Part shown: one piece after another, positions 6,503 through 39,330 of the stretch
Layout of the letters: each line of letters starts with the position of its first letter
How positions within the stretch are numbered: the stretch's first letter is position 1
Assembly (NCBI GenBank): GCA_028283145.1
Contig: JAPYNY010000017.1
Location: 1-42,688 of the forward strand
Length of the DNA: 42,688 nt
From: Candidatus Hopanoidivorans cymbastelae
GTDB taxonomy: Bacteria; Actinomycetota; Acidimicrobiia; Acidimicrobiales; Hopanoidiivorantaceae
Direction of reading: 5' to 3'
Made by a program: the position numbers and the translations under genes
The notes under the pieces: model-generated
Told to the model about the DNA's origin: nothing
What the model saw: only the letters and a program-made list of their open reading frames with translations
The model's database searches: none

Positions 6503-6533
6503 CCGCTAGCCGCCTTGAATAGCCGCAGCAAAT

Positions 6534-6545
6534 AGCCATTTGGCT
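6534..6545 (+). terminator. Short hairpin after der
   Basis: AGCCA-TT-TGGCT forms a 5-bp stem just downstream of der and is followed by GGTTTT. Three short 'AATAGCC' repeats precede or overlap it. It could be a weak transcription end; the stem is small and the T-run short. Confidence 0.25.
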
Positions 6546-6579
6546 GGTTTTGGCGCCCAAGGCTAGTACCATATTTTCA

Positions 6580-7770: not shown

Positions 7771-7786
7771 GGGGGTGATTTAGGTA

Positions 7787-8083
7787 GTGCCTTGGTGCGA
7801 CCCCTGTGAGCGTTTTTTCAACCCCAACACCTTAACTGCGCAGGGGTGCTGCCCGAAGTGCGGGTTGGAGTTGGGGGATGTGAAATCTGGGGTTGAGACC
7901 AAGACACTGATTGAGCCAGAGCAGAGGCTTGGGAGTGACGAGTCTGCTGCCGGTGACTCCGATGCCCCCAGCCAGAAAGCCAAAGTTCCCTGGCATTTCA
8001 AACTGCTGGTCACCGCTGCAGGAGGCTATGTAGGATGGCGGATAGTCCAGCTGGTCGTACAGGGTATAGAAGTGCTTTTCTAG
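7787..8083 (+). CDS. Small zinc-ribbon membrane protein
   Basis: This 98-aa protein starts at GTG 7787, 16 bp after the phosphatase gene and after a G-rich ribosome-site-like stretch. The N-terminus carries two Cys pairs ('WCDPC' and 'CCPKCG') that can form a zinc ribbon. A polar linker leads to one C-terminal hydrophobic helix ('WHFKLLVTAAGGYVGW...'). Similar small proteins are common in Acidimicrobiia, but their role is not known. It may be co-transcribed with the phosphatase. Confidence 0.75.
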   Translation: MPWCDPCERFFNPNTLTAQGCCPKCGLELGDVKSGVETKTLIEPEQRLGSDESAAGDSDAPSQKAKVPWHFKLLVTAAGGYVGWRIVQLVVQGIEVLF

Positions 8084-8098
8084 ACATGGCCTAGCGGT

Positions 8099-8143
8099 GG
8101 GTTTGAGTGATTGTACTCAACCCCGAAGCAGGCAGCTTCCTGC
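8099..8143 (+). terminator. Two adjacent hairpins after the zinc-ribbon gene
   Basis: The first hairpin is GGGTTTGAGT, loop GATTGT, ACTCAACCC, with one bulged T. The second is GCAGG, loop CAGCTT, CCTGC. They sit between the end of the small protein gene and tRNA-Pro and could end transcription. There is no clear T-tract, so this is tentative. Confidence 0.35.
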
Positions 8144-8165
8144 AAAACTAGTAGCATTTAAATAT

Positions 8166-8240
8166 CGGGCTGTGGCGCAGCTTGGTTAGCGCGTTGGTCT
8201 GGGGGACCAAAGGTCCCGGGTTCAAATCCCGGCAGCCCGA
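8166..8240 (+). tRNA. tRNA-Pro (anticodon GGG)
   Basis: The full cloverleaf is readable. The acceptor arm CGGGCTG pairs with CAGCCCG. The D-arm is GCGC...GCGC. The anticodon stem TTGGT/ACCAA carries loop CTGGGGG with anticodon GGG. The T-arm is CCGGG-TTCAAAT-CCCGG, with discriminator A. CCA is not encoded. Confidence 0.96.
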
Positions 8241-8290
8241 CTGCCTGGTAGTCAGTCCGACCACCTCCACCGGCCAGCCCGACCACTCAA

Positions 8291-9634
8291 CTAACTGTGA
8301 ATTGAGAAAGCGATAATCTCCGGGCCCTGTTGCAGGAAGTCAAAGTAGACCAGCAAGTTGCAATCGTCGCCGTCAGTCAGTGCTGTGTAGTTCAGTCTCT
8401 GCAAAGCTGCCGGTGGGGTAACGCTGGATGTCTCAACGATGCTCGGAGCTTCACTTAGACAAGACAACACATCCCGCAAACCCTGAAGTATGGAATCAAA
8501 GTTGTCTCCCTCGGTGTTGCCGAGCAGATAATCCTCCAAGGTGTCTCGGTTGTAGCGGTTATAGCCGTAAACCGAACCATTCTGGTCGGCTAAAGCCACA
8601 TAAGCGCCGCGACTGGACAGCCTCAAGTTGTGGGCGATTTCGGTCAATTGAGCCATAGTCTCAGGGCTGGGTTGGCCGTCTCGTCTTGCCTCATCAACCG
8701 CTCCCACGAAATTGACCAATACCTGCGCCAAGCCCCCGAACATGGTAGTTTCCTCGGAAGTCAGCAGGTGAGGCTGGACAGACACAGTGTGCGACAGCAC
8801 CCAACCTGCATTGCCTTCAGGGTCTAAGACCTCAACCCAAAGAGTTCCATCATTGTCAACAGCCGTATTGAGCGTGGTTTTGTAGGGGCCGTCCTCTGGC
8901 ACAACCGGGATAGTTGAGAGCCTTTCGCTGTCTAGGCGATGCTCGGCATAGACCACAGGATAGCCATTGCGCGCCACCTGCAACGGGCGCACTTCAAACA
9001 GAGTTTCCGAAGGCCGCTCGGGCGGCGGCGGGTCGGTTTCAGGCGGGGCAGTGGTGGTCGTAGTGTCGGGAGGAGCAGCGGTTGTGGGAGTGGGCGGATT
9101 GGTTGTGGTAGGAGGTGCGACCGTAGTAGAAGAAGGAGTGGGAGTGTCGGGCGGTTCGGATTCGTCGGTAACCACTTTTACAGGCTCGTCCCCACCTAGA
9201 TTGGGATTGTTGGTGTCTGGATCGTCATTGCCAGGGGTGGTTGCCACAGTGGTGGGCGTGGGAGTAGGCTCAGTTCCGTTGTTATCAGGCTGTTCTGGAG
9301 TAGTGGGGGATTCAGTCGATGATGGGGCCGCAACCTGCACAGTCTGGGTTGCGTCAGTATCTCTGGTGAGCAGCAGGGTGGTAACCACGCTGAGCGCCAC
9401 TAAAAGCACCAGACTCAGCACCAAGGAAGGCTGCAGGCGCAACCGCTCACGCTTCTCCCACAAAACCCTCGGACTCCAAGCACTGGCAGCTTCTCGGCGG
9501 CTGATGCGCTGGTTGATAGTGAAGAAAGCCTCAGAAGAAGGCGAGACCTGCTGGGCGTGCTCGTGCAGAGCCTTGCGCAGGCGGTTTTCAATCGGCTGCG
9601 GCTGGTCTTGGCGGTCTTGATTGTCTGTAGGCAT
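8291..9634 (-). CDS. Single-pass membrane protein with Thr/Pro-rich stalk and SH3-like external domain
   Basis: This 447-aa protein has a cytoplasmic N-terminal ~75 residues, one membrane helix ('LVLSLVLLVALSVVTTLLL'), and a long low-complexity Thr/Pro/Asp stalk (~100-210). A C-terminal extracytoplasmic region follows, starting with an SH3-like stretch ('GTLWVEVLDPEGNAGWV'). The gene lies downstream of an ECF sigma factor gene in the same direction (gap ~130 bp). That placement, and the short cytoplasmic head, suggest an anti-sigma or sensor partner. No classical zinc anti-sigma HxxxCxxC motif is visible, so this remains inference. Confidence 0.7.
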   Translation of the reverse strand: MPTDNQDRQDQPQPIENRLRKALHEHAQQVSPSSEAFFTINQRISRREAASAWSPRVLWEKRERLRLQPSLVLSLVLLVALSVVTTLLLTRDTDATQTVQVAAPSSTESPTTPEQPDNNGTEPTPTPTTVATTPGNDDPDTNNPNLGGDEPVKVVTDESEPPDTPTPSSTTVAPPTTTNPPTPTTAAPPDTTTTTAPPETDPPPPERPSETLFEVRPLQVARNGYPVVYAEHRLDSERLSTIPVVPEDGPYKTTLNTAVDNDGTLWVEVLDPEGNAGWVLSHTVSVQPHLLTSEETTMFGGLAQVLVNFVGAVDEARRDGQPSPETMAQLTEIAHNLRLSSRGAYVALADQNGSVYGYNRYNRDTLEDYLLGNTEGDNFDSILQGLRDVLSCLSEAPSIVETSSVTPPAALQRLNYTALTDGDDCNLLVYFDFLQQGPEIIAFSIHS

Positions 9635-9763: not shown

Positions 9764-10339
9764 CTAATGATTTTCAGACTGTGCGTTCGGGTCGTTGTCG
9801 GTGCCTCCGAGCAAGCTCTTCAAAGCGGCCAGACCACGACTTGCATGGGTCTTGACCGAGCCTTGCGAAATACCCAAAGTATCGGCAATTTCAGCTTCGC
9901 TCAGGTTTTGGTAGAAGCGCAGAACCAAGACTTCCGACTGGCGTTTCGGCAGACGTCTCAAAGCCGAAAGCATCTCCTCGCGCTCGTGCCTGCTCATGGC
10001 GTCTGATTCCGCCGAAGCGACAGGCTCAGGCATTTCATGCACATGGCGTTTGCGCACCCGACGCCACCGCATGCGAGAGCGCGTGCCGTTCAGCACCATT
10101 GCTCGCAGGTAAGCGGCTTCCTTGCCCGGTGTGGGCTGGGCGGTGGTGTAAAGCTTCACGAACGCATCCTGCACGACTTCCTCACAGCTTTCTACATCAT
10201 CCAGCAAGAAAGACGCTAGGCGGACTAGGGAGGCGTAATGCTCTTCGTAAAGTTTGACCAACTGCTCCTTGGTGGGCCGCTCGCTCACCACCGACAGGGT
10301 GATGTTGGATCTGTTCTTGGAATTGCCGGAGTCGCGCAT
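9764..10339 (-). CDS. ECF RNA polymerase sigma factor
   Basis: This protein of about 191 aa is a group-4 sigma factor. Region 2 ('YEEHYASLVRLASFLLDD...EEVVQDAFVKLY') is followed by region 4 ('LPKRQSEVLVLRFYQNLSEAEIADTLGISQGSVKTHASRGLAAL') with a clear helix-turn-helix. I chose ATG 10339 because it gives a normal family length and has a GGGGGAAG site upstream. The frame stays open to ATG 10537, which would add a Pro/His/Ala-rich extension. It is probably co-regulated with the membrane protein downstream. Confidence 0.88.
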   Translation of the reverse strand: MRDSGNSKNRSNITLSVVSERPTKEQLVKLYEEHYASLVRLASFLLDDVESCEEVVQDAFVKLYTTAQPTPGKEAAYLRAMVLNGTRSRMRWRRVRKRHVHEMPEPVASAESDAMSRHEREEMLSALRRLPKRQSEVLVLRFYQNLSEAEIADTLGISQGSVKTHASRGLAALKSLLGGTDNDPNAQSENH

Positions 10340-10622
10340 CGGGTGCGCTTCCCCCGCAGCTGAGATGTGATTTGCCAAGAAAAGCGGCTGGAGATGCGGC
10401 ACAGGTGCTGGATGCGTTATAGGAACTGGATGCGGCGCAGGCGCTGCCGGCCGGAGTGCAGCCATCTGCCAGAGTGGTATGCTGACAGACCTGAGGATAG
10501 CGGAAATGACAGATAAGACAGAAAGCGGCAAATTCATATCTCACATTTAATTAAGACGCCTAACCGAGCCAATAGGTTGACAAGCCTTTAATAAAAGATT
10601 TAAAAGACTTAACTGGGGGAAA

Positions 10623-11492
10623 ATGTCAGACCCCTCGTTTATTCTTGTAATTATGGAGCGAGAAGAGCAGACAAACCCTGATTTGGGGCTGTCCAATTCG
10701 GGCTTTTCAGGCCTGGAAACGGAGACGAACTCAAATGCCCCAAATGCCGGAGGCTTGGAAGACTTGTCAGGCATCTCAAGTCGGCTGCAGCGACTGGAGT
10801 GGCTGGACGAAATACGCCAGCTAGTTGCGAAATACGCCTTGGCGCTTGACATGAGAAATATGGATGCGCTGGTTTCGCTGTTTCCAACAGATGTGCGTGT
10901 AGGCAAAGCAAGGCAAGGTAGGACTGCTCTGAAAGAGTGGTTTGATGAAACCTTAAGACATCAGTTTACAGGCACAGCCCACGTTACAGGTAATCACATT
11001 ATTGAATTTGACGATGAATTTGACGATGCTGGTTTGGGCGAAGCGGGTCGGAACGCTGAACCAGACCGCTCTGGCCACCCAACTGCACGGGGCGTGGTGT
11101 ACAGCCGTAACGAACATGAATGTGGAGATGAATGGGTCATCATGACGATGATGTATTGGGACAATTATGAGCTGATCAACGATCGCTGGTTGTTCAGACG
11201 CCGGCTGCCATTGTATTGGTATGCCACAGACTTGAACAAGCCACCCATAGGTTCGGCCAAGATGCGCTGGCCCGGCCGGGAACGATACGACGGTGGCTGG
11301 GAGAAATTCTGGCCGAGCTGGGACAAATTCTGGAAAACCGCAGACGCAGATGTATCAGTTCCAGTGGATCTGAGCCAAAGCACCGAAGTCGGTGCCGCAG
11401 CTGACACCGATCTGGCCGAGGTGGACATAGCTAGATTCTTGACGTACATGCGGGCGGGCACCACCGATTTGCCGTCTGTCAGGGTGCGTTAG
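10623..11492 (+). CDS. SnoaL-like (NTF2-fold) protein with N- and C-terminal extensions
   Basis: This 289-aa protein has a central NTF2/SnoaL-like domain starting around residue 55 ('LDEIRQLVAKYALALDMRNMDALVSLF'), a signature shared with many steroid- and polyketide-associated small enzymes. It differs from the usual ~140-aa proteins in a ~50-residue polar N-terminus, a Trp-rich segment ('GGWEKFWPSWDKFWKTA') and an acidic tail. GGGGG stands just before ATG 10623. ATG 10653 is an alternative start. The substrate is unknown. Confidence 0.7.
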   Translation: MSDPSFILVIMEREEQTNPDLGLSNSGFSGLETETNSNAPNAGGLEDLSGISSRLQRLEWLDEIRQLVAKYALALDMRNMDALVSLFPTDVRVGKARQGRTALKEWFDETLRHQFTGTAHVTGNHIIEFDDEFDDAGLGEAGRNAEPDRSGHPTARGVVYSRNEHECGDEWVIMTMMYWDNYELINDRWLFRRRLPLYWYATDLNKPPIGSAKMRWPGRERYDGGWEKFWPSWDKFWKTADADVSVPVDLSQSTEVGAAADTDLAEVDIARFLTYMRAGTTDLPSVRVR

Positions 11493-26187: not shown

Positions 26188-26364
26188 TTAACACACAATG
26201 GCACCTGCGAAAAACTTTCTAGCCCGTTCCAGCAGCTCTAAAACGCTGACGCTTTCGTGGCGCGCAATCCTGCAGGACTGCCTGCTTACAATCCACTTCC
26301 ATATAGTCATAAATTTATTATCACCAAGGGGTCTGACATTCTCCCCGTAAAGCCCAGCTACCAT
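26188..26364 (-). CDS. 58-aa ORF with a degraded homologue at 31.0-31.1 kb
   Basis: Starting at ATG 26364, it reads 'MVAGLYGENVRPLGDNKF', then 'KWIVSRQSCR', and ends '...ERARKFFAGAIVC'. A piece with the same order ('LEDDNGFTALRKWIVSKQARR') is found on the minus strand at 31016-31100. The pair shows that this is a real, repeated coding unit, not random. Function is unknown. It may be a decayed small gene of a toxin-antitoxin or mobile type. Confidence 0.4.
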   Translation of the reverse strand: MVAGLYGENVRPLGDNKFMTIWKWIVSRQSCRIARHESVSVLELLERARKFFAGAIVC

Positions 26365-26436
26365 CCCACCGACCCAAAAGCGGCCGTTAGGTGTGCAATC
26401 CCCATTTCAAAGCAGCGCTGGTAAAATTCAGCAGGT

Positions 26437-28068: not shown

Positions 28069-28911
28069 ATGGCAGCAACACTAAAAGATTATGGCGTCTT
28101 GGTAACCGGCGGCGGCACGGGAATTGGGCATGCCTGCGCTGCAGCTCTGGTAGCTGACGGCGCCGCGGTAACGATTTGCGGGCGCACCGAAGCTACCTTA
28201 ACCAACTCAGTTGAGCGGCTGCAAGACAAGGTAGCCAACGGTGGCAGCGTGCGCTATGAAATTTGCGACGTGACAGACGAAAACCAAGTGGCCGCAGTTG
28301 TGGCCAAAGCTGCCGAACCCACGGGCACACTCAACGGAGTTGTGGCCAACGCCGGTGGCGGCGGCGGCATGGGCCCCTACCACCTGCAAGACACCCAGGA
28401 ATACCTGCGGGTGCTGCATTTGAATGTGCTTGGCACCATGTTGTGCGTCAAGCATTCAGTGCCCTACATGGCCGAAGCGGGAGGCGGCTCTTTCGTGGGG
28501 ATGTCGTCCATTGCCGGCAGTGTTACGCATCTCTGGTTTGGGGCTTATACGGCAGGCAAGGCTGGCATTGAAGCCATTTGTCGCAACGCTGCCGATGAGT
28601 ATGGGCCATCCAGCATTCGTTTCAACGCCATTCGGCCGGGCTTCATAGCCACCGAAATTATGGAGAACATCCCTAGGCAAGGCGAAGTGTATGAGAGCTA
28701 CATTGAAAACACCCCGCTGGGCGATGTGGGCCAGTCTGAAGATGTGGGGAATCTGGCCAGGTTTTTGATTGGGCCCGAGTCTCGCTGGATTACAGGCGAG
28801 GTGATCAACGTTGACGGCGGGCACAGCCTGAGGCGTGGCCCAGTCTTCACCGCTTTTGTGGAGCCGGCCTTGGGTGAAGATGTGCTCTACGGGAAGCTGC
28901 CCCAGGACTGA
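28069..28911 (+). CDS. Short-chain dehydrogenase/reductase
   Basis: This 280-aa SDR has 'TGGGTGIGHA', 'CGRTEATL' after strand 2 (Arg suggests NADP), 'VANAGGGGGMGP', Ser in 'GMSSIAGS' and 'YTAGKAGIE'. AAGGAG stands 6 bp before ATG. It resembles trans-2-enoyl-CoA or 2,4-dienoyl-CoA reductase-like SDRs, but specificity is open. Confidence 0.9.
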   Translation: MAATLKDYGVLVTGGGTGIGHACAAALVADGAAVTICGRTEATLTNSVERLQDKVANGGSVRYEICDVTDENQVAAVVAKAAEPTGTLNGVVANAGGGGGMGPYHLQDTQEYLRVLHLNVLGTMLCVKHSVPYMAEAGGGSFVGMSSIAGSVTHLWFGAYTAGKAGIEAICRNAADEYGPSSIRFNAIRPGFIATEIMENIPRQGEVYESYIENTPLGDVGQSEDVGNLARFLIGPESRWITGEVINVDGGHSLRRGPVFTAFVEPALGEDVLYGKLPQD

Positions 28912-29187: not shown

Positions 29188-30120
29188 GTGACCATAGTTC
29201 TAGCCACCAGTCTTGCCGCAATAGCCCTTGCTATATGGGGAGTGCAGGCAGGTAAGGCTCGCCTCGCCGCTGTGCAAGCTGCCCGAAACTCACGAGGCAT
29301 CACCCTGCAGACGTTGATCATCACTGCGGTGCTGGTGCTGCTCGCAGTGGCCGCCGGCGTAGTTATAGCCGCGATAACTAGAAGTAGTCAGGATGATTTG
29401 GAGGACACCACTGCCGATCTAGAGGGAATTGAATCGCAACTCGGAGTTGTGGTGAATGGTGAAGTCCGCACTGACTTAGTCTGCGCCACACACCAAGTTC
29501 CCACGCTTATTGATGATGGACAACATGCAGGAAAACTTGATTGCAAACCTGTTTGCTGGGTTACTTATTCAGATGCTGGCATCTACAAGCTAGCCCTACA
29601 TAGATTCTTGAGCTTTGATGAAAAGAGCATGGATGAGGATACGGCTGAATCCAGTATCACAGGAGGAGATAACGGTGTTTGGGCCGGCATAGAAAGGATT
29701 GTTCCTACTTCCGAAGTGCCGCTTACAGACGAGCCTTTTACCGGAGATCCCGTTAACCGACCGACAGAAATAAATACAAGAACAGGACGTGTAACGATAA
29801 ATGACGAAGCTGATTATGTTACATATATAGAGAGCACCAATGACAATCCACTTCTTATTAGGCCGGACGACTTTGCGAGTGGTGATGAGGGTATTATCTA
29901 TGCTGAAAGTCAGCCTGATGGAGCTCAAGAGCCAAATGGCGGAACTGTTATAGCCTACGGAGATTCTTGCTTTACAATTAATGATGCATGTGACATTCCC
30001 CAAACCAGGCGACAGGTGGTGAAAGAGCGATTGCAAGCTAGAAGTGTGCAAAACCCATCCGGTGGCCCCGCCACACCGTCTTTAAACCTTGAGGCAATTC
30101 GTACTCTGGAAAGCTGCTAG
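29188..30120 (+). CDS. Membrane-anchored Cys-rich pilin-like protein (module copy A)
   Basis: This 310-aa protein starts at GTG 29188, with GGAAGGA 7 bp upstream. Two hydrophobic segments (2-19 and ~37-63) are separated by a basic stretch ending in 'NSRG'. The G36-I37 junction plus the hydrophobic helix loosely resembles a prepilin cleavage site, but the first hydrophobic segment is unusual for pilins. Outside lie 'RSSQDDLED' and a Cys-rich module (C98, C118, C122). A middle region ~130-235 is not shared with copy B, and a conserved tail carries C261, C268 and terminal C310. The gene converges on a cofC remnant; their stop codons overlap. Role unknown; a surface or pilus subunit is inferred. 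Confidence 0.7.
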   Translation: MTIVLATSLAAIALAIWGVQAGKARLAAVQAARNSRGITLQTLIITAVLVLLAVAAGVVIAAITRSSQDDLEDTTADLEGIESQLGVVVNGEVRTDLVCATHQVPTLIDDGQHAGKLDCKPVCWVTYSDAGIYKLALHRFLSFDEKSMDEDTAESSITGGDNGVWAGIERIVPTSEVPLTDEPFTGDPVNRPTEINTRTGRVTINDEADYVTYIESTNDNPLLIRPDDFASGDEGIIYAESQPDGAQEPNGGTVIAYGDSCFTINDACDIPQTRRQVVKERLQARSVQNPSGGPATPSLNLEAIRTLESC

Positions 30121-30340
30121 GTTAACTGCTCCGGGAGTTGGTCTGAAAGTTTATCCACATCCAAGGCTAGATTTTCGTCTTTAAGCTCGATCACTTTCAA
30201 GCTCAAGTCTGCGCTAAGTCTTTGAACCTCCACTAGGTGATGGGAAAATTAAGCCTTGTTACAAAAGAATCTGATGCCATAACTTGTAGGCAGGCTCAAG
30301 GCATTGGTACCGCTTTCACAGCAATTCTGCGCGATGATGA
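30117..30340 (-). pseudogene. cofC 3' remnant (module copy A)
   Basis: The sequence aligns with the last third of the intact cofC at 32744 ('LLPEQL' end, 'ENLAWDVD' region) with scattered changes. Its stop (CTA, 30117-30119) overlaps the pilin-like stop. The homology fades at about 30325-30345, where decayed transposase sequence begins. It has no start and cannot function. Confidence 0.75.
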
Positions 30341-31015
30341 TTGAGTTATACTGCGCTATACCGAAGTGTGCTCATATTGCTCTGATAAGTTGATGTAGGA
30401 GCGGTACGCATGAGCAAGCACCACCGCTTCCTGCCCAGAGTTGTTTGATATAAACCTTTCTAGATCCTACCTGCTAGCAGCTATGACAAGCTTTACTACT
30501 GTTTTGATGCTGTGTTAGACGGCTCCAAATTCCGTAGTCTTAGCCACCGGCTATCTGCCTTTGCATTGTTTCTCAGTTCGCACTCGTTGCATTCCTTGCC
30601 GCCTATTTGGTCTTATCATCTTCCACTATGCCTCCTATCAATTCAAGGTTATCTTATTTGGACGCTTTATGTAATGAGGTGGTTTATATGCCAAGTAAAT
30701 TTCCGGATGAAGCTGAAACCACGGGCCAGTTTTCTGATGGACACCCCTTGAGGTTGGCAGCCATCAGATATATAATCACTACTCACTTGCGCACGCCGAT
30801 CTCGGATGATTGCATGACAGTATCTTTCTAGACGGAAAAGAACCCCGTCACTGCAAGCAATGCTATCGCATCTGCTGATTAGAAGACACAGCCCCCAATC
30901 GTTGCCACAATCGCGGCAGTGCAGACCGTCCGGTCAGCGCACCTAGATGAAACACTCCTCAGCGGTCTTGTTATCAGGGAACAACTCCAAAAAACCGACT
31001 CCTTCACGACGCACA
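30330..31015 (-). mobile_element. IS1595-type transposase relic 1
   Basis: Translating the minus strand in shifting frames gives an ordered series of family motifs: 'GVGFLELFPDNKTAEECF', 'PDGLHCRDCGN' (zinc ribbon), 'TVMQSSEIGVRK', 'IYLMAANLKG', 'KLARGFSFIRK', 'TWHINHLI', 'IGGKECNECELRNN' and 'AYRSYINLSEQYEHTSV'. Several stops and frameshifts show it is long dead. Its lower-coordinate end meets the cofC remnant, so insertion probably broke that copy. No terminal inverted repeats could be recognised. Confidence 0.7.
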
Positions 31016-31120
31016 TCACGCCGAGCCTGCTTACTAACAATCCACTTCCTCAATGCTGTAAAACCATTATCATCCTCGAGTCTGATATTCAACTTCCCCC
31101 CCCCCATCCCGCCAACACCC
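31016..31120 (-). pseudogene. Degraded homologue of the 58-aa ORF at 26.2 kb
   Basis: The stretch 'KLNIRLEDDNGFTALRKW' plus 'IVSKQARRDVRR' matches the order in the 58-aa frame. Upstream the nucleotides still read like its 'FWVGGM' segment, but a C10 tract (G10 on this strand) disturbs the frame. It runs without a break into the transposase relic frame. Confidence 0.5.
31096..31105. repeat. C10 homopolymer (G10 on the minus strand)
   Basis: Ten consecutive C, inside the degraded small-ORF homologue. It is one of four G/C runs of 9-10 bases between 31.1 and 38.6 kb. Confidence 0.95.
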
Positions 31121-31299
31121 AAAAACCTAGAAATGATAAGTTAAGCATGCAACCCCTAAATAATTTATTCCCGATGACTTTTGAAATCTTTGCCTACTCA
31201 AGATCCAGCAAGAAGCCACAACAGGGTTTTGTGAACTAGCCACCCAAGTTGAAAATGCCATAACCACTGCTAGCGTGAGATCTTCAAAAATCTTAGGTG

Positions 31300-31882
31300 T
31301 AGCCAAAGCCGACTGAGACACAGCAATGCTAGTACCAATTAAAGTCTTTTATATGCGATAAACAACTCGCCCTGAAACTCTTTCCTCAGGAGCGGGCTAA
31401 ATTAGCCCGTGAAAAGGCGGGCCATGTGCTAAAGGTAGTCAAGTCATTGCCATTTTTTGTGATTTACAATGCCGAAGAAGTGTAACACTGGGCAAGGCAA
31501 CAAGATGTTGAAGTGATCAAGTGTGTGGACTGGTCTGAACAAAGCTCTAGAGCTGGGTATGCACGTGGGTAAACTGGGATCTTGCCAAGCTATTGTAGCC
31601 TATGGCGATTTACCATTGGTTCAGGGATTTTCCCTACTGACCCACAAAAATCATGGGATCGTCATCGTGCCAGACTGCCATGAAAGCTGCTCGAACGTCT
31701 TGAGCCTACTTACAGGCTATGGATTCAGGTTCTCCTATCGGTAAGGCTTCAATTGCCCGCTACCTGGCTTAGGCTTAGAGGCTGAGCTCAGAAATGAGAC
31801 TGAAAGTGAGTGTACTAGGGTACAAAAACTGGTCTGGGATGTAGATAAGCCCTTAAACCTGCTCTCAGAACAACTAACTTAG
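31300..31882 (+). pseudogene. cofC full-length remnant (module copy B, inverted)
   Basis: The whole length aligns with intact cofC, starting with the equivalent of 'ARADRGTAVLVPIK' and ending with '..LSEQLT' and TAG 31880-31882. Frameshifts and stops interrupt it throughout. As in copy A its stop overlaps that of the convergent pilin-like gene. It is older than the 33/36-kb repeat, judging by its many differences. Confidence 0.8.
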
Positions 31883-32634
31883 CAACTTTCTATGGTACGA
31901 AGTGCATCAATCCTCAAAGACGGCGAAGTGGGTCCACCGGGTGCATTTTGCACACCCTCAGCTTCTAATTGATCTTTAACCACTTGTCGTCTGGTCTGTG
32001 ATACATCACATACATCATCAATTGAAAAGCAAGAACTTCCATAAGCTACGACACTACCGTTAGATGGCACATCAGCACTGTCAGGCTGAGTCTCAGAATA
32101 AATTATACCATCATCACCGCCTTCGTAGTCTTCATCTACAGGAGTTGGTCTTTTGGCACTTGGGTGCTCATTAAAGTCATCACCTTCAGCAGTTGCAAGT
32201 GGCCAATTAGGTGGCCTGAGTACACCATCTGGCCAATCAGGCGGTTCATTCCCATCGGCTACCGGGTCAGAACCATTCACAACCCCGTCTCCATTCCTAT
32301 CGTGTGGCCAGGAGCCATCTTGTCCTTGCGTTTTGCCTGACTCACCAGGCTTTGGCTTTTGACCAAAGTTTGCGGTTCGGAGTAAAGCATCCTTGTACCT
32401 ACCCACATCGCTATAAGTAACCCAACAAACAGTTTTACAATCAAGACTTCCTTCATGCTTTCCACCAGTAATGAGCGTGGAAACTTGGTGCGTGCCACAA
32501 CTCACGTCAAAACGGACTTCATCACCCACCAGAATTCCAAACTGCGATTCAATTCCCTCTAGGTCGGCAGTGGTGTCCTCTAAATCATCCTGACTACTTC
32601 TAGTTATCGCGGCTATAACTACGCCGGCAGTCAC
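31879..32634 (-). CDS. Pilin-like protein lacking the N-terminal membrane segment (module copy B)
   Basis: A 251-aa frame is fully open. Its first residues ('AGVVIAAITRSSQDDLEDTT') match copy A from the end of the second hydrophobic helix. Upstream of about 32632 the homology stops abruptly, so the export/membrane segment and the start are missing. The six cysteines and the C-terminal ~75 residues correspond to copy A. The middle (~73-165) is different and carries Asp/Gly/Pro-rich text ('DRNGDGVVNGSDPVADGN') resembling a dockerin-like Ca loop. Expression is doubtful, yet the frame survives next to a heavily decayed cofC. Confidence 0.6.
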   Translation of the reverse strand: MTAGVVIAAITRSSQDDLEDTTADLEGIESQFGILVGDEVRFDVSCGTHQVSTLITGGKHEGSLDCKTVCWVTYSDVGRYKDALLRTANFGQKPKPGESGKTQGQDGSWPHDRNGDGVVNGSDPVADGNEPPDWPDGVLRPPNWPLATAEGDDFNEHPSAKRPTPVDEDYEGGDDGIIYSETQPDSADVPSNGSVVAYGSSCFSIDDVCDVSQTRRQVVKDQLEAEGVQNAPGGPTSPSLRIDALRTIESC

Positions 32635-32743
32635 CGCCCTAGGCTGCCCTCCCTGGGCAGAATGGGCTGCGCCGAACCGACTAAATTTGTTGACTTGATA
32701 TGTTACGGGTCGATGTTGACGAATTACGGCTAGAGGGCGTGAA

Positions 32744-33334
32744 CTAGGGCAATTGCTCCGGGAGCAGGTCTGAGGGTTCGTCTACATCCCAGGCCAGATT
32801 TTCGTCTTTGAGCACGCTCACTTTCAGACCCAGCTCTGCGTTCAGTCTTTGAGCTTCCACTAAGTGGCGAGTAAACGAAGCTTTACCGTAGGAGAATCTG
32901 AAGCCGCAACCCGTGGGCAGGCTCAAGACGTTGGTGCCGCTTTCATGGCGGTCCGGTACGATAACGATCCCATGATTTCTATGCGCTAGTCGGGCAAATC
33001 CTTTAGCCAACGGCAAATCACCGTGGGCTATGACAGCACGGCTGAATCCCAACTCTCCCACTCGCAAAACGCCCAGCTCCACGGCTTTGTTCAAACCAGT
33101 CCCCACACACTTGATCACCTCAACATCTAGCTGCCGTGCCCACCTTTCCACTTCTTCGGCATCGCAAATCACAAAGGTCGGCAAGGGCTTGGCTACCCTC
33201 AGCACATGGCGCGCCATTTCACGAGCCAATTCTGCTCGTTCCTGAGGGGAGAGCTTCGGGGCGAGCCGTTTTTTTGCCTGTGAAAAGGCTTTGATTGGCA
33301 CTAGCACTGCTGTGCCACGGTCGGCTCTGGCCAT
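32744..33334 (-). CDS. cofC: 2-phospho-L-lactate/phosphoenolpyruvate guanylyltransferase (intact copy)
   Basis: This 196-aa nucleotidyltransferase of coenzyme F420 biosynthesis activates phospholactate or PEP with GTP in the cytoplasm. Visible features: 'AVLVPIKAFSQAKKRLAPKLS' (the 'PxKxxxxAKxRL' motif), 'VICDAEEV', 'HGDLPLAKGF' and 'IVPDRHESGTNVLSLP' with 'FRFSYGKASF'. It is the only uninterrupted cofC of four copies. Its 5' part (33177-33334) belongs to a 307-bp repeat. gpsA follows ~3.6 kb away; cofC and gpsA are often neighbours in actinobacteria, so the 33.5-36.9 kb block may be a later insertion. Confidence 0.9.
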   Translation of the reverse strand: MARADRGTAVLVPIKAFSQAKKRLAPKLSPQERAELAREMARHVLRVAKPLPTFVICDAEEVERWARQLDVEVIKCVGTGLNKAVELGVLRVGELGFSRAVIAHGDLPLAKGFARLAHRNHGIVIVPDRHESGTNVLSLPTGCGFRFSYGKASFTRHLVEAQRLNAELGLKVSVLKDENLAWDVDEPSDLLPEQLP

Positions 33335-33483
33335 ATCTGTGATTTTAGAAGCTGTTTTGGCTGGAGTTTCAAAGCTGTAGTCATAGTCATCGGGAGGGGG
33401 GTAATATGGCAGGCGCGTTCAGCAGTGGTGTGGGCAGCGCAAGATTCGCGCGACATCACCTTGCAGACTTTGATCTTCACCGC
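33177..33483. repeat. 307-bp direct repeat, left copy
   Basis: It matches 36101-36407 with a constant offset of 2924 bp, no indels and about six mismatches by eye (~98% identity). It spans the 5' end of cofC, the divergent promoter region and the 5' end of a pilin-like gene. It ends at the point where the two copies abruptly differ. Confidence 0.92.
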
Positions 33484-33495
33484 GATGACACTGGC
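33366..33495 (+). pseudogene. 5' fragment of a pilin-like gene (module copy C)
   Basis: It encodes 'AAQDSRDITLQTLIFTA', matching copy A 'AARNSRGITLQTLIITA', divergent from cofC. GGGAGGGGGG (10 bases) precedes it and leaves the helix out of frame with the upstream start region. Homology ends at about 33490, where the second transposase relic begins. Confidence 0.65.
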
Positions 33496-33504
33496 AGTGC
33501 TAAG

Positions 33505-33702
33505 GGATCATTTTTCGACAAGAAATGCACTGCCTGACAATCATCCAAATTCGAAGTCCGCAAGTGGACAGATGGCTGTTTTCATAATGGCAATGAAACT
33601 GAATGAGGGGATCAGCATGAAGTTGGCATGGACTCTGGTTATCAAGCAGAAATCGGCTTGGCACATGCCACACCGCATGCCCGAAGCGTTCGAAAGATAA
33701 TC
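33505..33702 (+). mobile_element. IS1595-type transposase relic 2
   Basis: A short open piece reads 'HFSTRNALPDN', 'GISMKLAWTLVIKQKSAWHM' and 'PHRMPEAFER', the order of the IS1595 core ('...SMKLxRDLGIxQKxAWHMxHRIRxAFE'). Only about 65 residues remain. It truncates pilin-like fragment C and sits directly before the methylase-like fragment. Confidence 0.65.
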
Positions 33703-33731
33703 CTGGACAGCTTTAAGGTGGTAAAGCTTCT

Positions 33732-34805
33732 ATGTCAGCAGACACAGGCATGGGAGAGGTAGTGCTCACCGCCCGCAAAGGAAGCCAAGGTAGATCCGGG
33801 ATTGTGTATGCATGCATACATGAACCTTTCAAAACCGCGGCTGAAGCTGCTGAAACAGCTAGAGCTTTGCGACATGGATTGACGGGGGGGGGGCACATTT
33901 CTGGGCAATCCGGTGTCATTTCATTAGGTGGGGACCACGTAGGCGATTGGTATTGGTCGCCAAACGGAGAAGGGATTTGGGCAGGTGCTGGAATGTCTCA
34001 GCTATCCAGATTTTTCTCTAGAGCGGATAATCTTACGAGAGGTACGCTAGGCCTAGTCACTTTTCCTATTACTGAGGTCGGTGATATCTTTGAAGTAGGG
34101 CCCACGCACGATCGAATAGGGCATCCTGTAAATAAAGGTAAGAAAAAAGAAAAAACAGACCCTAGAGGTGCTTTTACTCTCTATCCGTATGATAGGGAAA
34201 AATCAACTTCCGATTTGATGTTGTGGAAAGCAGACAGCAAGACTCAAACTCAGATAACTTTGCAAGCAACCCATTACGGTAGTGTGCGTAACTCAAAAAG
34301 CAAAGACGCAGATATCAGACGAAGGGAAAAAACCAACTTATTTATCCAGAGAAATATGGGGTGGAAATCTCAGAAAATTTTAGTTGCCCACACAAACCAG
34401 CCAATCATGGGAGGTAGAGCTTGGGCAGGATTGCGACATGAGGACGAAGATGTTAAATTTGCTTTCGCTATTTGGGCCAATAGTATTTTCGGATTCATAT
34501 CACACTGGGCACAAGCTGGACGTCAGCACCAGGGTAGATCTCTGATTCAAATCAATGGAATAAGAAAATTGCGCTGCCCTGATTTCACCAACCCTGAACT
34601 GAAAGAAAGAGCATCGCAGTTCAGGCAGCAAACCCCCGAGCTCTTTACAATGAAGCTTGGAATAGCCAACCAGGCTGAAAACGACAACAACCGGCGGCAG
34701 CTTGATATAGTGGCAGGGCAAATACTGGGACTTACACAGCAAGAAGCTGAAGTCACGTCTCAGGAGTTGGCTGGTTTGTGGTGTGCGGAAGCATCTGTCC
34801 GGTGA
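33732..34805 (+). CDS. C-terminal part of a large DNA methylase-like (defence) protein, with an in-frame G10 tract
   Basis: This 357-aa frame starts 'MSADTGMGEVVLTARK', which resembles the end of an N6-adenine methylase core. The later 'MGGRAWAGLRHEDEDV', 'FAIWANSIFGFISHWAQAGRQHQGRS' (over two stretches) and a closing 'LWCAEASVR' resemble the C-terminal recognition-type region of large actinobacterial methylases. No SAM motif (FxGxG) or NPPY/DPPY motif is present, so the catalytic part is missing. G10 at 33884-33893 falls at codons 51-54 and keeps the frame; a one-base slip would end the protein early. The family assignment is my recollection of pattern, not a search result. Probably a truncated gene. 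Confidence 0.5.
   Translation: MSADTGMGEVVLTARKGSQGRSGIVYACIHEPFKTAAEAAETARALRHGLTGGGHISGQSGVISLGGDHVGDWYWSPNGEGIWAGAGMSQLSRFFSRADNLTRGTLGLVTFPITEVGDIFEVGPTHDRIGHPVNKGKKKEKTDPRGAFTLYPYDREKSTSDLMLWKADSKTQTQITLQATHYGSVRNSKSKDADIRRREKTNLFIQRNMGWKSQKILVAHTNQPIMGGRAWAGLRHEDEDVKFAFAIWANSIFGFISHWAQAGRQHQGRSLIQINGIRKLRCPDFTNPELKERASQFRQQTPELFTMKLGIANQAENDNNRRQLDIVAGQILGLTQQEAEVTSQELAGLWCAEASVR
33884..33893. repeat. G10 homopolymer inside the methylase-like frame
   Basis: Ten consecutive G, encoding the end of Thr plus three Gly. Such tracts are the usual switch in phase-variable modification genes of other bacteria. Confidence 0.95.
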
Positions 34806-34924
34806 GACAGGTGAGCGGCGGTATTCACTGGTAAGCACCGTTCCTGCACCGGGCTGTCAAAATCCTAGGCTGAACAAAACGCAATTGCCTTGTGTGTGCA
34901 TTGTGTGCTGCTAGGCTGGAGGAC

Positions 34925-35422
34925 ATGAGACAAGCTCCGACTGACTGGCTGGCGATACACGCCAGCAAACTCCCCCGGGTTGAAGACAACGGGCCACCTA
35001 CGGTCTTCGAGTTTTTCGATGAGTTCCGCGCAGAGCTGGAAAACCTCAGATGCCGCGGAACCTGTGATGCGCATAGCCCGTCAGAACAAGTGGGGTGTGT
35101 CTGTGCGCTGGCTGACCGGCTGGCAGACCTGTCTGGGGAGTGGATCTCCAAAAGCGAATTCGCCCAAGTATTAGTGCCCGCCGGCTTTGATCAGCAGCAA
35201 GCCTTGCAGAAATACAGATTGTACGCGCACATGAAGCTTTTGGAAGAAGCGGAACCGGAACTAGAGGAACTGGGATTAGAGGCGGAGAATGCTTACAACT
35301 GGCAAGTGGAGAAACCATGCCCTCAGACGCATAGGGCGTTCAACGCAGCTGCGCAAGCCTCCAGGAACCGATTTGAAAAGGTATATACAGATTTGGAAAA
35401 AGTGATGGACACGCCTAGCTGA
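34925..35422 (+). CDS. Hypothetical helical protein upstream of the PIN-like gene
   Basis: This 165-aa protein (ATG 34925; a GTG at 34892 would add 11 residues) is acidic and mostly helical. It has a cluster of Cys ('LRCRGTCDAH', 'VGCVCALADRLADLSGEW') and a Glu-rich coiled region ('LLEEAEPELEELGLEAENAY'). The tail 'RFEKVYTDLEKVMD' has a weak echo at 36510-36594. It is 35 bp from the PIN-like gene in the same direction, so the two may form a pair. No family recognised. Confidence 0.55.
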   Translation: MRQAPTDWLAIHASKLPRVEDNGPPTVFEFFDEFRAELENLRCRGTCDAHSPSEQVGCVCALADRLADLSGEWISKSEFAQVLVPAGFDQQQALQKYRLYAHMKLLEEAEPELEELGLEAENAYNWQVEKPCPQTHRAFNAAAQASRNRFEKVYTDLEKVMDTPS

Positions 35423-35457
35423 AGCATCGCAGCTAGCTTGCTTGACTTGTCTGTTGA

Positions 35458-36003
35458 ATGATTATGGAAGCAGTTGCCGGGGCAATCATTGATAGTTGTG
35501 TCTTTATTGGTTTCAGCAGCAAACCTGAATTAATTGTAGAGCATACTGAAGGAAAAAATATTTATTTCTTTAATGAGGTGGAGTATGAAGTATTCAAGCA
35601 TTATCATGTAAAATTGCGCAAGAGGAGAGAATATGCCTTAACCAAAACAGATATTGTGCTAAACAATGTGTTTAAGGCGAAAAAGATTGGTCCTAACGCT
35701 TCTACATACGATGTTTTTGAGGAGTTGAAGCATTATTTGCGTTTGGCAGATATTTCTGAGAAGCGGATAAGAGAAGAACGAACCGATATTCTGGTCGCTG
35801 CTTATGGCATTTCTTATCGGATGGATGTCGTGTCAGCTGATAATTTGTTCCGGGTGATGGAAGCTTTGTTTCCCGATCATCTTATGCTTCGCACCATTCC
35901 AGGCTTAGGCAGTCCGTTGAGTCCCGACTATTTGAAGCAGTTGAAAGCTAACCTGCGCAAACATGGGGTGGAATTGCCTATTAACCTATCTTCGGCCCCA
36001 TGA
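35458..36003 (+). CDS. PIN-like nuclease domain protein
   Basis: This 181-aa protein has the spaced acidic residues of a PIN domain: D12 in 'IIDSCVFIGF', E40 in 'FFNEVEYEVF', D110 in 'RTDILVAAYG' and D128 in 'VVSADNLF'. PIN proteins cut RNA and are often toxins. The gene is visibly more AT-rich than its neighbours, a sign of transfer. A ~45-residue C-terminal extension follows the PIN core. Two Met codons (35458, 35464) are candidate starts and no clear ribosome site is seen. The preceding gene would be the candidate antitoxin, without other support. Confidence 0.6.
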   Translation: MIMEAVAGAIIDSCVFIGFSSKPELIVEHTEGKNIYFFNEVEYEVFKHYHVKLRKRREYALTKTDIVLNNVFKAKKIGPNASTYDVFEELKHYLRLADISEKRIREERTDILVAAYGISYRMDVVSADNLFRVMEALFPDHLMLRTIPGLGSPLSPDYLKQLKANLRKHGVELPINLSSAP

Positions 36004-36100
36004 GCGGCATAGGTAGAATTTGCGTTCCCGCTCTTGATGCTTGCTCAACTGTCATTTTGCGCCGAGAGCGGCGACCTGACACGCACCTTTCCTCTTTTGT

Positions 36101-36258
36101 GTCGGCAAGGGCTTGGCTACCCTCAGCACATGGCGCGCCATTTCACGAGCTAATTCTGCTCGTTCCTGAGGGGAGAGCTTCGGGGCGAGCCGCTTTTTTG
36201 CCTGTGAAAAGGCTTTGATCGGCACTAGCACTGCTGTGCCACGGTCGGCTCTGGCCAT
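36101..36258 (-). pseudogene. cofC 5' fragment (module copy D)
   Basis: It keeps the first ~52 codons of cofC ('MARADRGTAVLVPIKAF...LRVAKPLPT') almost identical to the intact copy, then ends abruptly at 36101 in unrelated sequence. It has the start region but no catalytic remainder. Confidence 0.88.
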
Positions 36259-36303
36259 ATCTGAGATTTTAGAAGCTGTTTTGGCTGGAGTTTCAAAGCT
36301 GTA

Positions 36304-36510
36304 GTGATAGTCATCGGGGGGGGGGTAATATGGCAGGCGCGTTCAGCAGTGGTGTGGGCAGCGCAAGATTCGCGCGACATCACCTTGCAGACTTTGATCT
36401 TCACCGCCGTTCTGATGCTGATGGATGTGGCTGCTGGCGTGATTGTCTTGGCTATCACCCGAAGCAGCTAGGAGGACTTGGAGGAAACCACCCCTGATCT
36501 AGAGGGAGCT
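36304..36510 (+). pseudogene. 5' part of a pilin-like gene with G10 tract (module copy D)
   Basis: GTG 36304 begins 'VIVIGGG', then G10 shifts the frame. If the tract lost one G, the frame would join 'VIWQARSAVVWAAQDSRDI' and the membrane helix as in copy A. A second lesion is TAG 36469-36471, where copy A has CAG (Gln), before 'EDLEETTPDLEG'. Homology ends near 36505. Broken at two points, so not functional now. Confidence 0.7.
36316..36325. repeat. G10 homopolymer in pilin-like copy D
   Basis: Ten consecutive G directly after the start region. The left repeat copy reads GGGAGGGGGG at the same place, one substitution away. Confidence 0.95.
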
Positions 36511-36594
36511 ATCGCACAGCCGACAAAACGGCCTGGGACAGATCTGACAGAGTGCGTAAGGATTTGGAAAAGATAATTTCCATGGCAGATTGAC
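36510..36594 (+). pseudogene. Possible tail fragment like the 165-aa protein
   Basis: The frame reads 'DRVRKDLEKIISMAD' then stop, similar in spacing to 'NRFEKVYTDLEKVMD' at the end of the gene at 34925. Short and weak, but it suggests that more of the cargo was once duplicated. Confidence 0.25.
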
Positions 36595-36914: not shown

Positions 36915-37919
36915 ATGAAAGTAGCTGTGATAGGCGGCGGTTCTTGGGGCACAACCATAGCTTCAATGCTGGCAGACAAGGCTGCAATAACCCTGTGGTG
37001 TCGCTCCGCTGAAGTGGTGCAATCCATCAACACCAGCCACCGAAACCCCACTTTTTTGGGAGATCTGCCCCTGTCTGTCCAGCTGTCTGCCAGCACCGAT
37101 CAAGCCGAGGTGCTCCAGCAAGCCACAGTTGTGGTAGCTGCGGTGCCGTCTCATGCATTGCGCTCGGTGATGGCCGAAGCAGCATCCTTGATCCCCCCTG
37201 AAACTGCGCTGGTAAGTTTGGTCAAGGGTTTTGAAAGAGGCACTCTCAAGCGTGGCTCAGAAATACTGGCTGAACTTTTTCCGCACAACCCCCAAGCGGT
37301 GCTGTCAGGGCCAAATCTGGCAAAAGAAACGCTTCAAAAACAGCCCACCGCCACCGTCATAGCCAGCGAAAACAGCCAGCTTGCGGCCGACCTGCAGGAT
37401 TTGTTCACAACCGCCAGCTTCAGGGTTTACACCTCAGACGACGTCAAGGGGGTGGAGTTGGCAGGCGGGCTGAAGAACGTAATCGCGCTGGCTGCTGGGA
37501 TCGTCTTGGGGCAGGGCTCAGGGCGCAACACTCAGGCTGCTTTGGTAACCAGGGGCTTGGCGGAGATGAAGAGCCTGGGTGCAGCCGTGGGAGCGAAGGC
37601 GGAAACATTTTCCGGATTGGCAGGCATCGGAGACCTCATGGCCACTTGCTTCAGCACCCAAAGCCGCAACCTGTCTGTCGGCATGGAGATAGGCAAGGGG
37701 CGAAGTTTGTCCGAAGTGGTAGCTGAGACGAAGCAGGTGGCTGAGGGAGTCAAAACTGCTGGGGTTGTCGTGGAGCTGGCCAAAACGCATGGAGTGGAGA
37801 TGCCTATCTGCCAAGAAGTTTGGGCGGTGCTTTACAACCAGCGCACCCCAGCGGAGGCATACCAAAGGTTGCTCAGTCGCCCATTACGGGCTGAGGCTGG
37901 TTCGCCTGCTGCGCCTTGA
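36915..37919 (+). CDS. gpsA: NAD(P)-dependent glycerol-3-phosphate dehydrogenase
   Basis: This 334-aa enzyme makes sn-glycerol-3-phosphate from dihydroxyacetone phosphate for phospholipid synthesis. It has the Rossmann motif 'VIGGGSWGTTIA', 'VPSHALRSV', 'SLVKGFE', 'LSGPNLAKE', the catalytic Lys region 'GVELAGGLKNVIALAAGI' and 'RNTQAALVTRGLAEM'. 'FSGLAGIGDLMATCFS...SRN' is also present. The start is ATG 36915 in an AT-rich leader; the ribosome site is weak. Confidence 0.96.
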   Translation: MKVAVIGGGSWGTTIASMLADKAAITLWCRSAEVVQSINTSHRNPTFLGDLPLSVQLSASTDQAEVLQQATVVVAAVPSHALRSVMAEAASLIPPETALVSLVKGFERGTLKRGSEILAELFPHNPQAVLSGPNLAKETLQKQPTATVIASENSQLAADLQDLFTTASFRVYTSDDVKGVELAGGLKNVIALAAGIVLGQGSGRNTQAALVTRGLAEMKSLGAAVGAKAETFSGLAGIGDLMATCFSTQSRNLSVGMEIGKGRSLSEVVAETKQVAEGVKTAGVVVELAKTHGVEMPICQEVWAVLYNQRTPAEAYQRLLSRPLRAEAGSPAAP

Positions 37920-38040: not shown

Positions 38041-39330
38041 ATGTCATCCGAATTAAATATAGAACAAAGCAAATTGCACAACGAAACTGAGCGTTGGCTG
38101 CTGAAACAGGGCTTGCCGCACCTGATTGATGATTACACGGCCCGAACCGATGTGTTCACCAGAATGCTGCCGCTGATGCTGTTCCTTTTTTTCGGGGAGA
38201 CGTTACTGGCTTTTGAAGAAATAGATCATGGAGTGCACCATCTACGCGAGCCGTGGATTTTTTTTATAGATTTCATTACGGCTCTTTTCGGCATCTTCAG
38301 CACTTGGAGAGAAGCAACTATTTTCATTTCTTCGATGGTAATTTTTCTGGTGGTCGCAGCCATAGTCAACCACTTCCGCGGGCGTAGGCTGCTTCAGATC
38401 CCGGATTCCATAGGCATTCCAGAGTTGACTCTGGTAGTGCTGCTGCCCGCGTTGCTGTCTATGCTTGTGGTCAGAGAACAAGTTGTATATGTTTTCATTG
38501 TCATAGTGGGCTTCAATCTTATAGTTTTGGGGGGGGGCTATGTCTTGACCAGCTACGGGCTGATTTCAATGTTCGGCTGGTCGATAAAGTTCATGATAAG
38601 GCAGTTGGGTCAAATTTTGAATCTGGCTGCCCGCTCGTTGCCGTTGTTGTTGCTTTTTTCGGCCTTCCTTTTTTTGAACAACGAAATGTGGCAGGTAGCC
38701 GCCAATTTCACAGTCCCGTACTATGTCATTATCATGAGCATGCTGGTGTTGGTGAGTTGTGTCTTTCTGGGGGCCAGTGTGGGTGAAGAAGCTCAAAATT
38801 TGGGCAATTTTTCTTCTTGGGACGACGTGACCAGTCAAGTGAGACAAACAAATTCTCCTATCAGTACCTTGTCGCACTCCGCAGTTGGCCTTGAAGGAGA
38901 TTTCAAACCAGTGCCATTGACTTCGGGCGCCAAAATCAACGTAGTCCTGCTGCTGTTCATATCCCAGTTCGTGCGCTTTTTGTTGGCTGCCGTGCTGATG
39001 GCTGTCTTCTTTGTGTTTTTGGGTTTGCTAGCCGTGCGCCGACCCACCATTGAAACCTGGACCAACGCCGATGCAGACGCTTTGGCAATCTGGCATTTCT
39101 TTGGAAATGAAGTGATCATGACTTGGGAGCTGCTGGCTGTAGTCGGATTTATCTCGGTGCTTTCAGGTTTGCAGTTTGTTGTGTTCTCGCTGACCGACAC
39201 CGCCTACAAGGAAAGGTTTTTTAACGACATCACCGAAGAGCTAAATCATGTTCTGGCCGTCAGAAGGCTCTATCTTGTCTTGCGGGACCAGTTGAGTGCC
39301 AGTCAGCGTGGAGGAGCTTCAGTCGTATAG
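38041..39330 (+). CDS. Polytopic membrane protein of unknown function
   Basis: This 429-aa protein has about eight membrane helices: several between residues ~40 and 245, then two around 295-330 and one near 360-385, with a polar loop (~245-290) between. There are charged residues in the first helical part ('FGETLLAFEEIDHGVHH'). A G9 tract at 38529-38537 encodes 'LGGGYV'; slippage there would truncate the protein. No family was recognised. Its 3' end overlaps the convergent gene by 71 bp. Confidence 0.72.
   Translation: MSSELNIEQSKLHNETERWLLKQGLPHLIDDYTARTDVFTRMLPLMLFLFFGETLLAFEEIDHGVHHLREPWIFFIDFITALFGIFSTWREATIFISSMVIFLVVAAIVNHFRGRRLLQIPDSIGIPELTLVVLLPALLSMLVVREQVVYVFIVIVGFNLIVLGGGYVLTSYGLISMFGWSIKFMIRQLGQILNLAARSLPLLLLFSAFLFLNNEMWQVAANFTVPYYVIIMSMLVLVSCVFLGASVGEEAQNLGNFSSWDDVTSQVRQTNSPISTLSHSAVGLEGDFKPVPLTSGAKINVVLLLFISQFVRFLLAAVLMAVFFVFLGLLAVRRPTIETWTNADADALAIWHFFGNEVIMTWELLAVVGFISVLSGLQFVVFSLTDTAYKERFFNDITEELNHVLAVRRLYLVLRDQLSASQRGGASVV
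38529..38537. repeat. G9 homopolymer inside the membrane-protein gene
   Basis: Nine consecutive G, in frame at codons ~163-166. Part of the cluster of long G/C runs. Confidence 0.95.

Follow-up and report, generated by a model that had tools for sequence, protein, structure and literature searches.

The window, meaning the whole stretch of DNA analysed here, comprises 42,688 nucleotides of contig JAPYNY010000017.1 from Candidatus Hopanoidivorans cymbastelae (order Acidimicrobiales). Between an SDR gene (28069-28911) and gpsA (36915-37919) lies an array in which pieces of two genes recur in both orientations. One is cofC, the other is a gene for a pilin-like protein that we term pil. The array was compared with the corresponding locus of G001, a sister species of the same genus assembled as one contig. 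Its parts are as follows.

28069 to 28911, plus strand: SDR gene (PF13561), left anchor of the ancestral locus; the G001 protein is 88.5% identical and in the same position.
29188 to 30120, plus strand: pilA, an intact pilin-like gene (310 aa, GTG start) with a class-III-signal-like core, RG followed by ITLQTLIITAVLVLL, and no poly-G tract.
30117 to 30341, minus strand: cofC1, a 3' fragment convergent with pilA; the stops overlap at 30117-30120.
30341 to 31127, minus strand: remnant of an insertion sequence (IS) of the IS1595 family, ISXO2-like (nhmmer E 1.5e-188, model positions 7-798; family consensus PF12762/PF12760).
31282 to 31882, plus strand: cofC2, a pseudogene that is full-length but has frameshifts and stops; its orientation is opposite to that of cofC3.
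31879 to 32637, minus strand: pilB, an inverted copy without the first 52 codons; its 251-aa open reading frame (ORF) is open and has a 47-bp exact match to pilA.
32744 to 33334, minus strand: cofC3, the sole intact cofC (196 aa; TIGR03552 119.8 bits, cut-off 105; PF01983 E 4.2e-25).
33177 to 33483, no strand: first copy of a 307-bp direct repeat, holding the 5' part of cofC3 and the 5' start of pilC; its G tract is interrupted (GGGAGGGGGG), and it has six differences from the second copy.
33365 to 33487, plus strand: pilC, a 5' fragment divergent from cofC3 and cut by an insert (33446-33487 against pilA 29290-29331, 81%); its left limit is inferred from pilD.
33486 to 33726, plus strand: IS1595 fragment adjoining pilC on the left edge of the insert (nhmmer E 6.2e-49, model positions 273-510).
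33732 to 34805, plus strand: insert ORF1 (357 aa), which matched no family and has weak relatives on plasmids of Dinoroseobacter and Nitrosospira; G10 tract at 33884-33893.
34892 to 35422, plus strand: insert ORF2 (176 aa), with a 77% DNA match to contig C84.
35458 to 36003, plus strand: insert ORF3 (181 aa), no family match.
36101 to 36407, no strand: second copy of the 307-bp repeat, including the cofC4 5' fragment (36101-36258, minus strand).
36289 to 36519, plus strand: pilD, a 5' fragment, dead because of an in-frame TAG in the core and an RG-to-RD change at the predicted cleavage site.
36316 to 36325, plus strand: G10 tract in the pilD leader region, of the same kind as in other pil genes of the genome.
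36915 to 37919, plus strand: gpsA, right anchor; the divergent neighbour of cofC in most inspected relatives.

Self-comparison of the region from 28 to 38 kb revealed eight long blocks of pil/cofC homology, direct and inverted, with 70-98% identity and far above chance. Direct blocks join the two copies of the 307-bp repeat (98.0%), 30117-30318 and 32744-32945 (76%), and 29290-29427 and 36370-36507 (74%). Inverted blocks pair 31282-31873 with 33351-32753 (75% over 600 bp, spanning the whole of cofC), 29344-29589 with 32637-32392 (82.6%, part of pil) and 29881-30341 with 32118-31658 (70%, pil plus the tail of cofC). The homology between copies on which the first-pass annotation depended is therefore real, as is the inversion of one unit. 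That annotation had also described convergent pairs with overlapping stops, which are present in the sequence at 30117-30120 (CTAG) and 31879-31882, and a single intact copy of each gene. Complete genes are indeed limited to pilA and cofC3; the remaining pil content is the copy lacking 52 codons (pilB) and the 5' fragments pilC (about 33365-33487) and pilD. Homology to the CofC protein extends over one full copy (32747-33334, minus strand), one full-length copy with stops (31342-31876, plus strand), a 3' piece (30123-30350, minus strand) and a 5' piece (36097-36258, minus strand). The proposed divergent pairs at 33177-33483 and 36101-36407 are divergent, but they consist of pil 5' fragments lying opposite the complete cofC in the first case and a cofC fragment of 53-54 codons in the second.

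In G001, the same SDR, gpsA and membrane-protein genes enclose one convergent pil/cofC pair (locus L069; pil at 10458-11177 on the minus strand, cofC at 9797-10516 on the plus strand), the two ORFs overlapping by 59 nt. Outside the genus, cofC adjoins gpsA in divergent orientation in most of the inspected genomes of the order, in agreement with the neighbourhood that the first-pass annotation gave for it, and no pil gene was detected beside cofC in these genomes. Since G001 has a single pair and the inspected genomes outside the genus showed no pil at this place, the pair is a genus-level arrangement and the array a later expansion. Furthermore, the pilA protein is closer to that of pilB (56-59% identical) than to that of the sister pil (about 38%), which dates the duplication after the species split. 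Thus, we conclude that the array is a lineage-specific expansion accompanied by decay.

This decay has been asymmetric. The cofC3 product passes the CofC equivalog model, retains the GDLP and GTN motifs and aligns with PDB entry 7p97 over residues 3-190, both motifs included. The other three copies fail as CofC: cofC1 and cofC4 are 3' and 5' fragments respectively, and cofC2 carries about five frameshifting indels plus stops within 600 bp. The 251 codons of pilB, by comparison with pilA, show a nonsynonymous divergence (dN) of 0.32 and a synonymous divergence (dS) of 0.87 (dN/dS about 0.37), indicative of purifying selection. Because the stops of pilB and cofC2 overlap as those of pilA and cofC1 do, the two were duplicated jointly; as cofC2 eroded while its co-duplicated partner stayed open and constrained, the surface gene was retained, whereas the metabolic copy was not. 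Selection for multiple cofC copies, whether for dosage or for function in F420 supply, might be invoked on account of the four cofC-derived copies, but with only one intact and three truncated or frameshifted, this explanation is largely refuted by the lesions and we regard it as extremely improbable.

Neighbouring genes have hitchhiked with pil elsewhere too. Copies of pil on contig C43 are flanked by two degenerate fragments from the 5' end of pnp. G001 has a 2.4-kb tandem duplication (96%) of pil and a convergent coiled-coil gene, and its inverted pil copies carry the 3' tail of that coiled-coil gene. The idea that a housekeeping gene was carried along with a copied surface gene is accordingly well founded, resting on the single pair of the sister species, the decay of cofC against an open pilB and the same pattern elsewhere. 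What does not stand is the notion of a repeated metabolic-plus-surface unit: there is no maintained module, and cofC is a bystander.

A region so rich in repeats, in a draft of 90 contigs and with a 98% repeat at the edges of the insert, might also have been stitched together by the assembler, its repeats and inversions deriving from paralogous contigs or strains. However, the blocks are 70-83% identical and bear distinct lesions, and copies this divergent cannot be duplicates made by assembly. In addition, the SDR and gpsA anchors are syntenic with those of the single-contig sister genome, within which similar architecture is found. We therefore consider misassembly very unlikely. The first-pass annotation would have abandoned repeated duplication had relatives carried a single pair and the region proved misassembled; relatives do carry the single pair, while the divergence of the copies excludes assembly duplicates.

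Two breakpoints of the array coincide with IS1595 remnants. The profile used to detect them came from a 1-kb repeat dispersed through this genome, the consensus of which encodes an IS1595/ISXO2 DDE transposase with a zinc ribbon (PF12762, E 4.7e-19; PF12760, E 4.1e-9). A search with nhmmer matched the window DNA at 31127-30341 and 33486-33726. The first remnant begins at 30341, exactly where cofC1 homology ends, and the second at 33486, three bases past the end of the long direct repeat in pilC (33483). These are truncated remnants with no recognised terminal repeats; no complete IS1595 with terminal inverted repeats and target duplication was found in the window. About 34 remnants occur genome-wide. 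A remnant lies no more than 500 bp from five of the 20 pil clusters, where a simple null of random placement predicts 0.89 (p 0.0004). IS1595 elements may have landed in, or taken part in, the rearrangements. A further fragment lies outside the array at 26229-26378, and the remnant at 30341-31127 contains a C10 tract (31096-31105).

Remnants inside the array and near several pil loci could also suggest a composite transposon, with pil and cofC as passengers of IS1595 elements. Against this, the IS1595 pieces are incomplete and fail to enclose pil/cofC units between common ends, the array occupies the ancestral chromosomal locus, 15 of the 20 pil clusters are more than 500 bp from any IS1595 sequence, and so far no conserved terminal repeats have been found around pil units in any relative. 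We judge this origin highly improbable; the status of pil genes as IS1595 passengers was rejected for want of common ends around pil units.

The 2,617-bp insert, with its IS1595 fragment and three ORFs, sits between the 98%-identical repeats and is the part of the array most exposed to misassembly. At 307 bp, the flanking duplication greatly exceeds the length of a transposition target duplication. The insert was considered as a defence island and rejected, its three ORFs having no PADLOC, PHROG or NCBIfam match. A phage search was likewise negative, and the plasmid matches are weak hypotheticals. Elsewhere in the window, positions 1-3622 comprise a low-GC stretch with a tandem duplication of a gene for a protein of about 590 aa (1-1557 against 1855-3417; 80% DNA and about 70% protein identity).

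The inverted position of pilB invites another explanation, in which it is a maintained, promoterless, 5'-truncated silent cassette whose ectodomain is recombined onto the pilA start through the 47-bp identity. In its favour, pilB lacks the leader-coding 5' part and has an open frame under purifying selection, the 47 exact bp common to both genes lie at the constant/variable boundary, and contig C43 has two inverted pairs in which one partner each is 5'-truncated at an identical 34-bp stretch. However, recent truncation accounts equally well for an open pilB, the arms are separated by an IS remnant and two cofC copies, and the two pairs on C43 appear to derive from a single event that segmental duplication then copied. 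Additionally, inspection by eye turned up no site-specific recombinase among the ORFs of C43 or in the neighbourhood of the window, no systematic family search having been made. Such a cassette system is unlikely. At C43 (L075/L076, 12979-21466), two convergent inverted pil pairs are accompanied by duplicated pnp fragments and many IS1595 remnants; site-specific inversion there, suggested by the 34-bp identity in four copies and by sharp 5' breakpoints, was set aside, the pairs being segmental duplicates with no recognised invertase, and is retained only as a rival.

The pil genes of the array belong to a much larger family. This genome has about 35 genes with the core, RG followed by ITLQTLIVTAVLVLMAVAAGVVIVAITNSSSDDLEEQ, and G001 has 13. 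When a core profile was searched against 347 genomes of the order, family members were found only in the three genomes of the window's own family; in each of four other genomes there was one weak match, covering 32-38 residues and located in a short open frame. The family is thus almost confined to this lineage. A basic residue and Gly precede a hydrophobic helix (RG followed by ITLQTLIVTAVLVLMAVAAGVVIV), as in a class-III signal. Among ten aligned members, the G, the TLQ motif and the helix are conserved, and the basic residue is found in most. The genome holds genes for assembly components, namely PF00437 at three loci, PF00482, TadE (PF07811) and A24 peptidase (PF01478, matched marginally). 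Given these Tad-type ATPase, TadE and peptidase genes, processing of pil proteins by Tad-type machinery is plausible as judged from gene content. The ATPase genes fall in three separate Tad-type clusters (L131, L130 and L132) in a genome of 2.3 Mb. In G002, of a related genus, the core heads open frames of 1,180-1,360 aa on contigs C22, C78, C113, C126 and C129.

In many pil genes of both species, a run of 9-10 G or C is found no further than about 60 bp ahead of the core, and several more have one behind it. The first-pass annotation did not bring up these tracts. The pilC and pilD fragments also carry the tract, as GGGAGGGGGG and G10 respectively. Genome-wide statistics, which rest on genome-search matches and retrieved stretches, gave 67 runs of at least nine, 20 of them in pil genes, which account for 1.1% of the genome (binomial p about 5e-23). 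The 90-bp pil leader windows hold 13 of the 67 against 0.09 expected, so that a slippery coding-region tract is strongly over-represented in the family. At the fetched loci, six runs were of seven, one of eight, 19 of nine and eight of ten, and this second length peak at 9-10 was not reproduced by shuffled sequence. The remaining 47 runs of at least nine G lie outside pil genes (for example on C11, C18, C20, C41 and C52) and may mark other phase-variable genes.

Both frame states are present in the family, with intact and selected downstream ORFs. Homologous start-bearing leaders are in frame with the core in three genes, at +1 in five and at +2 in four. Nine out-of-frame genes have no further lesion after the core, and pairwise dN/dS has a median of 0.36, denoting purifying selection. 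Among paralogs on contig C75, a G9 copy reads through, while its G10 neighbour stops 64 codons past the core start, the remainder being open in +1. Reversible slippage would produce just such a pattern, for which pseudogene decay does not readily account. The pattern is the signature of slipped-strand phase variation, although the switching itself is deduced from sequence.

Tracts were also recorded at neighbouring and related loci. The C75 locus (L077, 1780-10030) contains four pil genes with a G tract in the coding region after the core (G9, G10, G9 and G9, the G10 copy frameshifted) beside a five-copy array of another gene of about 192 aa (5800-8873). In G001, locus L070 (5457-18533) has seven pil genes distributed over both strands, each with a leader tract of C9/C10 or G9, and tandem units with the convergent coiled-coil gene. 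Next to gpsA in the window, a G9 tract (38529-38537) lies inside an intact membrane-protein gene (38041-39330); the homologous region of G001 has no run of at least eight.

We consider it likely that the array is a decayed local expansion of pil, with cofC hitchhiking, within a pil family that would be switched by slippage. The ancestral locus would have been an SDR gene, a pil gene, a convergent cofC and then a gpsA gene divergent from it. In this lineage, the segment of pil and convergent cofC would have been duplicated in tandem and once inverted. IS1595 elements would have inserted during the rearrangements or taken part in them, most copies decaying afterwards. The cofC copies would be passengers, of which one stayed functional and the others eroded, the putative surface gene being retained by selection for some presumed benefit. 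The pil product is predicted to be a pilin-like protein with a class-III-signal-like N-terminus and a variable, Cys-containing ectodomain, presumably handled by one Tad-type machine of the genome. The family has grown to about 35 genes, most with a tract of 9-10 G (or C) in the leader or early coding region, and slippage at each tract would bring the core into or out of frame with the start codon, switching each gene on or off independently. As a class of mechanism, the array is ordinary: birth-and-death duplication with a hitchhiking housekeeping gene. An extended form would have surface variation operate in two layers in this uncultured Acidimicrobiia-like lineage, with some 35 Tad-type pilin-like genes switched independently by poly-G/C slippage and constantly replenished by local duplications, direct and inverted, that drag cofC or pnp, and with truncated inverted copies such as pilB serving as ectodomain donors for pilA-like genes; we hold this to be rather unlikely.

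Several observations weigh against the reading of a decayed expansion within a slippage-switched pilin-like family. The one complete pil gene in the window, pilA, lacks a tract and would be constitutively on. The tracts vary unusually little in length, almost all being of 9 or 10, and these lengths are the assembly consensus of a 90-contig draft, in which the 98% repeat with the insert could be a chimeric join. The IS1595 remnants may be later passengers and not a cause. As to pilin identity, no Pfam pilin family matched pil above cut-off, leaving the N-terminal motif as its basis. Glu is absent at +5, nearly all members having Thr at +5 and Gln at +4, and the first hydrophobic stretch, which precedes the core, gives a leader of unusual length for a prepilin. 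A PDB sequence search with pilA gave only a weak match to Geopilin (E 0.36), and an AlphaFold model of pilA, with pilB as the only other row, was unusable (predicted local distance difference test score, pLDDT, of 35).

The wider interest lies in the family that the array exposes, a large lineage-restricted set of pilin-like genes with slippery G tracts, which both species of the genus carry and which the other 344 genomes of the order almost entirely lack. Should the tracts indeed switch, these genes would amount to a phase-variable repertoire dedicated to the cell surface in an actinobacterial lineage from the environment, whereas repertoires of this kind are usually studied in pathogens. 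Strong and changing pressure on the cell surface, from phages, grazers or a host, would then be implied.

Several known systems resemble parts of this arrangement. Neisseria pilE/pilS and the invertible pilins of Moraxella similarly place an intact pilin gene near a 5'-truncated relative, with short identity at the constant/variable boundary. The pil locus differs in having divergent arms with an IS remnant between them, and no recombinase was identified on inspection by eye. With Tad/Flp (type IVc) pilins and pseudopilins, pil shares a cleavage-like RG followed by a hydrophobic helix, in a genome with Tad-type ATPase, TadE and A24 peptidase genes; however, pil ectodomains are much longer (170-290 aa after the core), and the pilin family match and the Glu at +5 are lacking. 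In the poly-G contingency genes of Campylobacter and Neisseria, coding-region runs of about 9-10 G are strongly non-random (PMC6321876, PMC5084427). The same holds for pil, although in another phylum and with tracts concentrated in one paralog family. For Mycobacterium tuberculosis, homopolymer indels are proposed to switch gene state, with phase variants at ESX-1-associated loci (PMC11898584); homopolymer switching has thus been proposed in an actinobacterium, whereas the pil tracts lie in one large surface-gene family.

Literature searches on Acidimicrobiia pilins or phase variation found nothing on topic, and the pil family has the signatures of a contingency multigene family like Opa in a lineage for which the literature searched contained no such report. 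Opa proteins are outer-membrane barrels and their genes carry a pentamer repeat. Pil has poly-G/C tracts, codes for single-helix pilin-like proteins and belongs to an Acidimicrobiia-like bacterium, and its switching is predicted from sequence. In the gonococcus, about 11 dispersed opa genes switch stochastically by phase variation (PMC3745409). Like Opa, pil is a multigene family of predicted surface proteins with a conserved N-terminal part and variable regions, in which the slippery leader repeats are independent of one another and in-frame and out-of-frame copies coexist in one genome.

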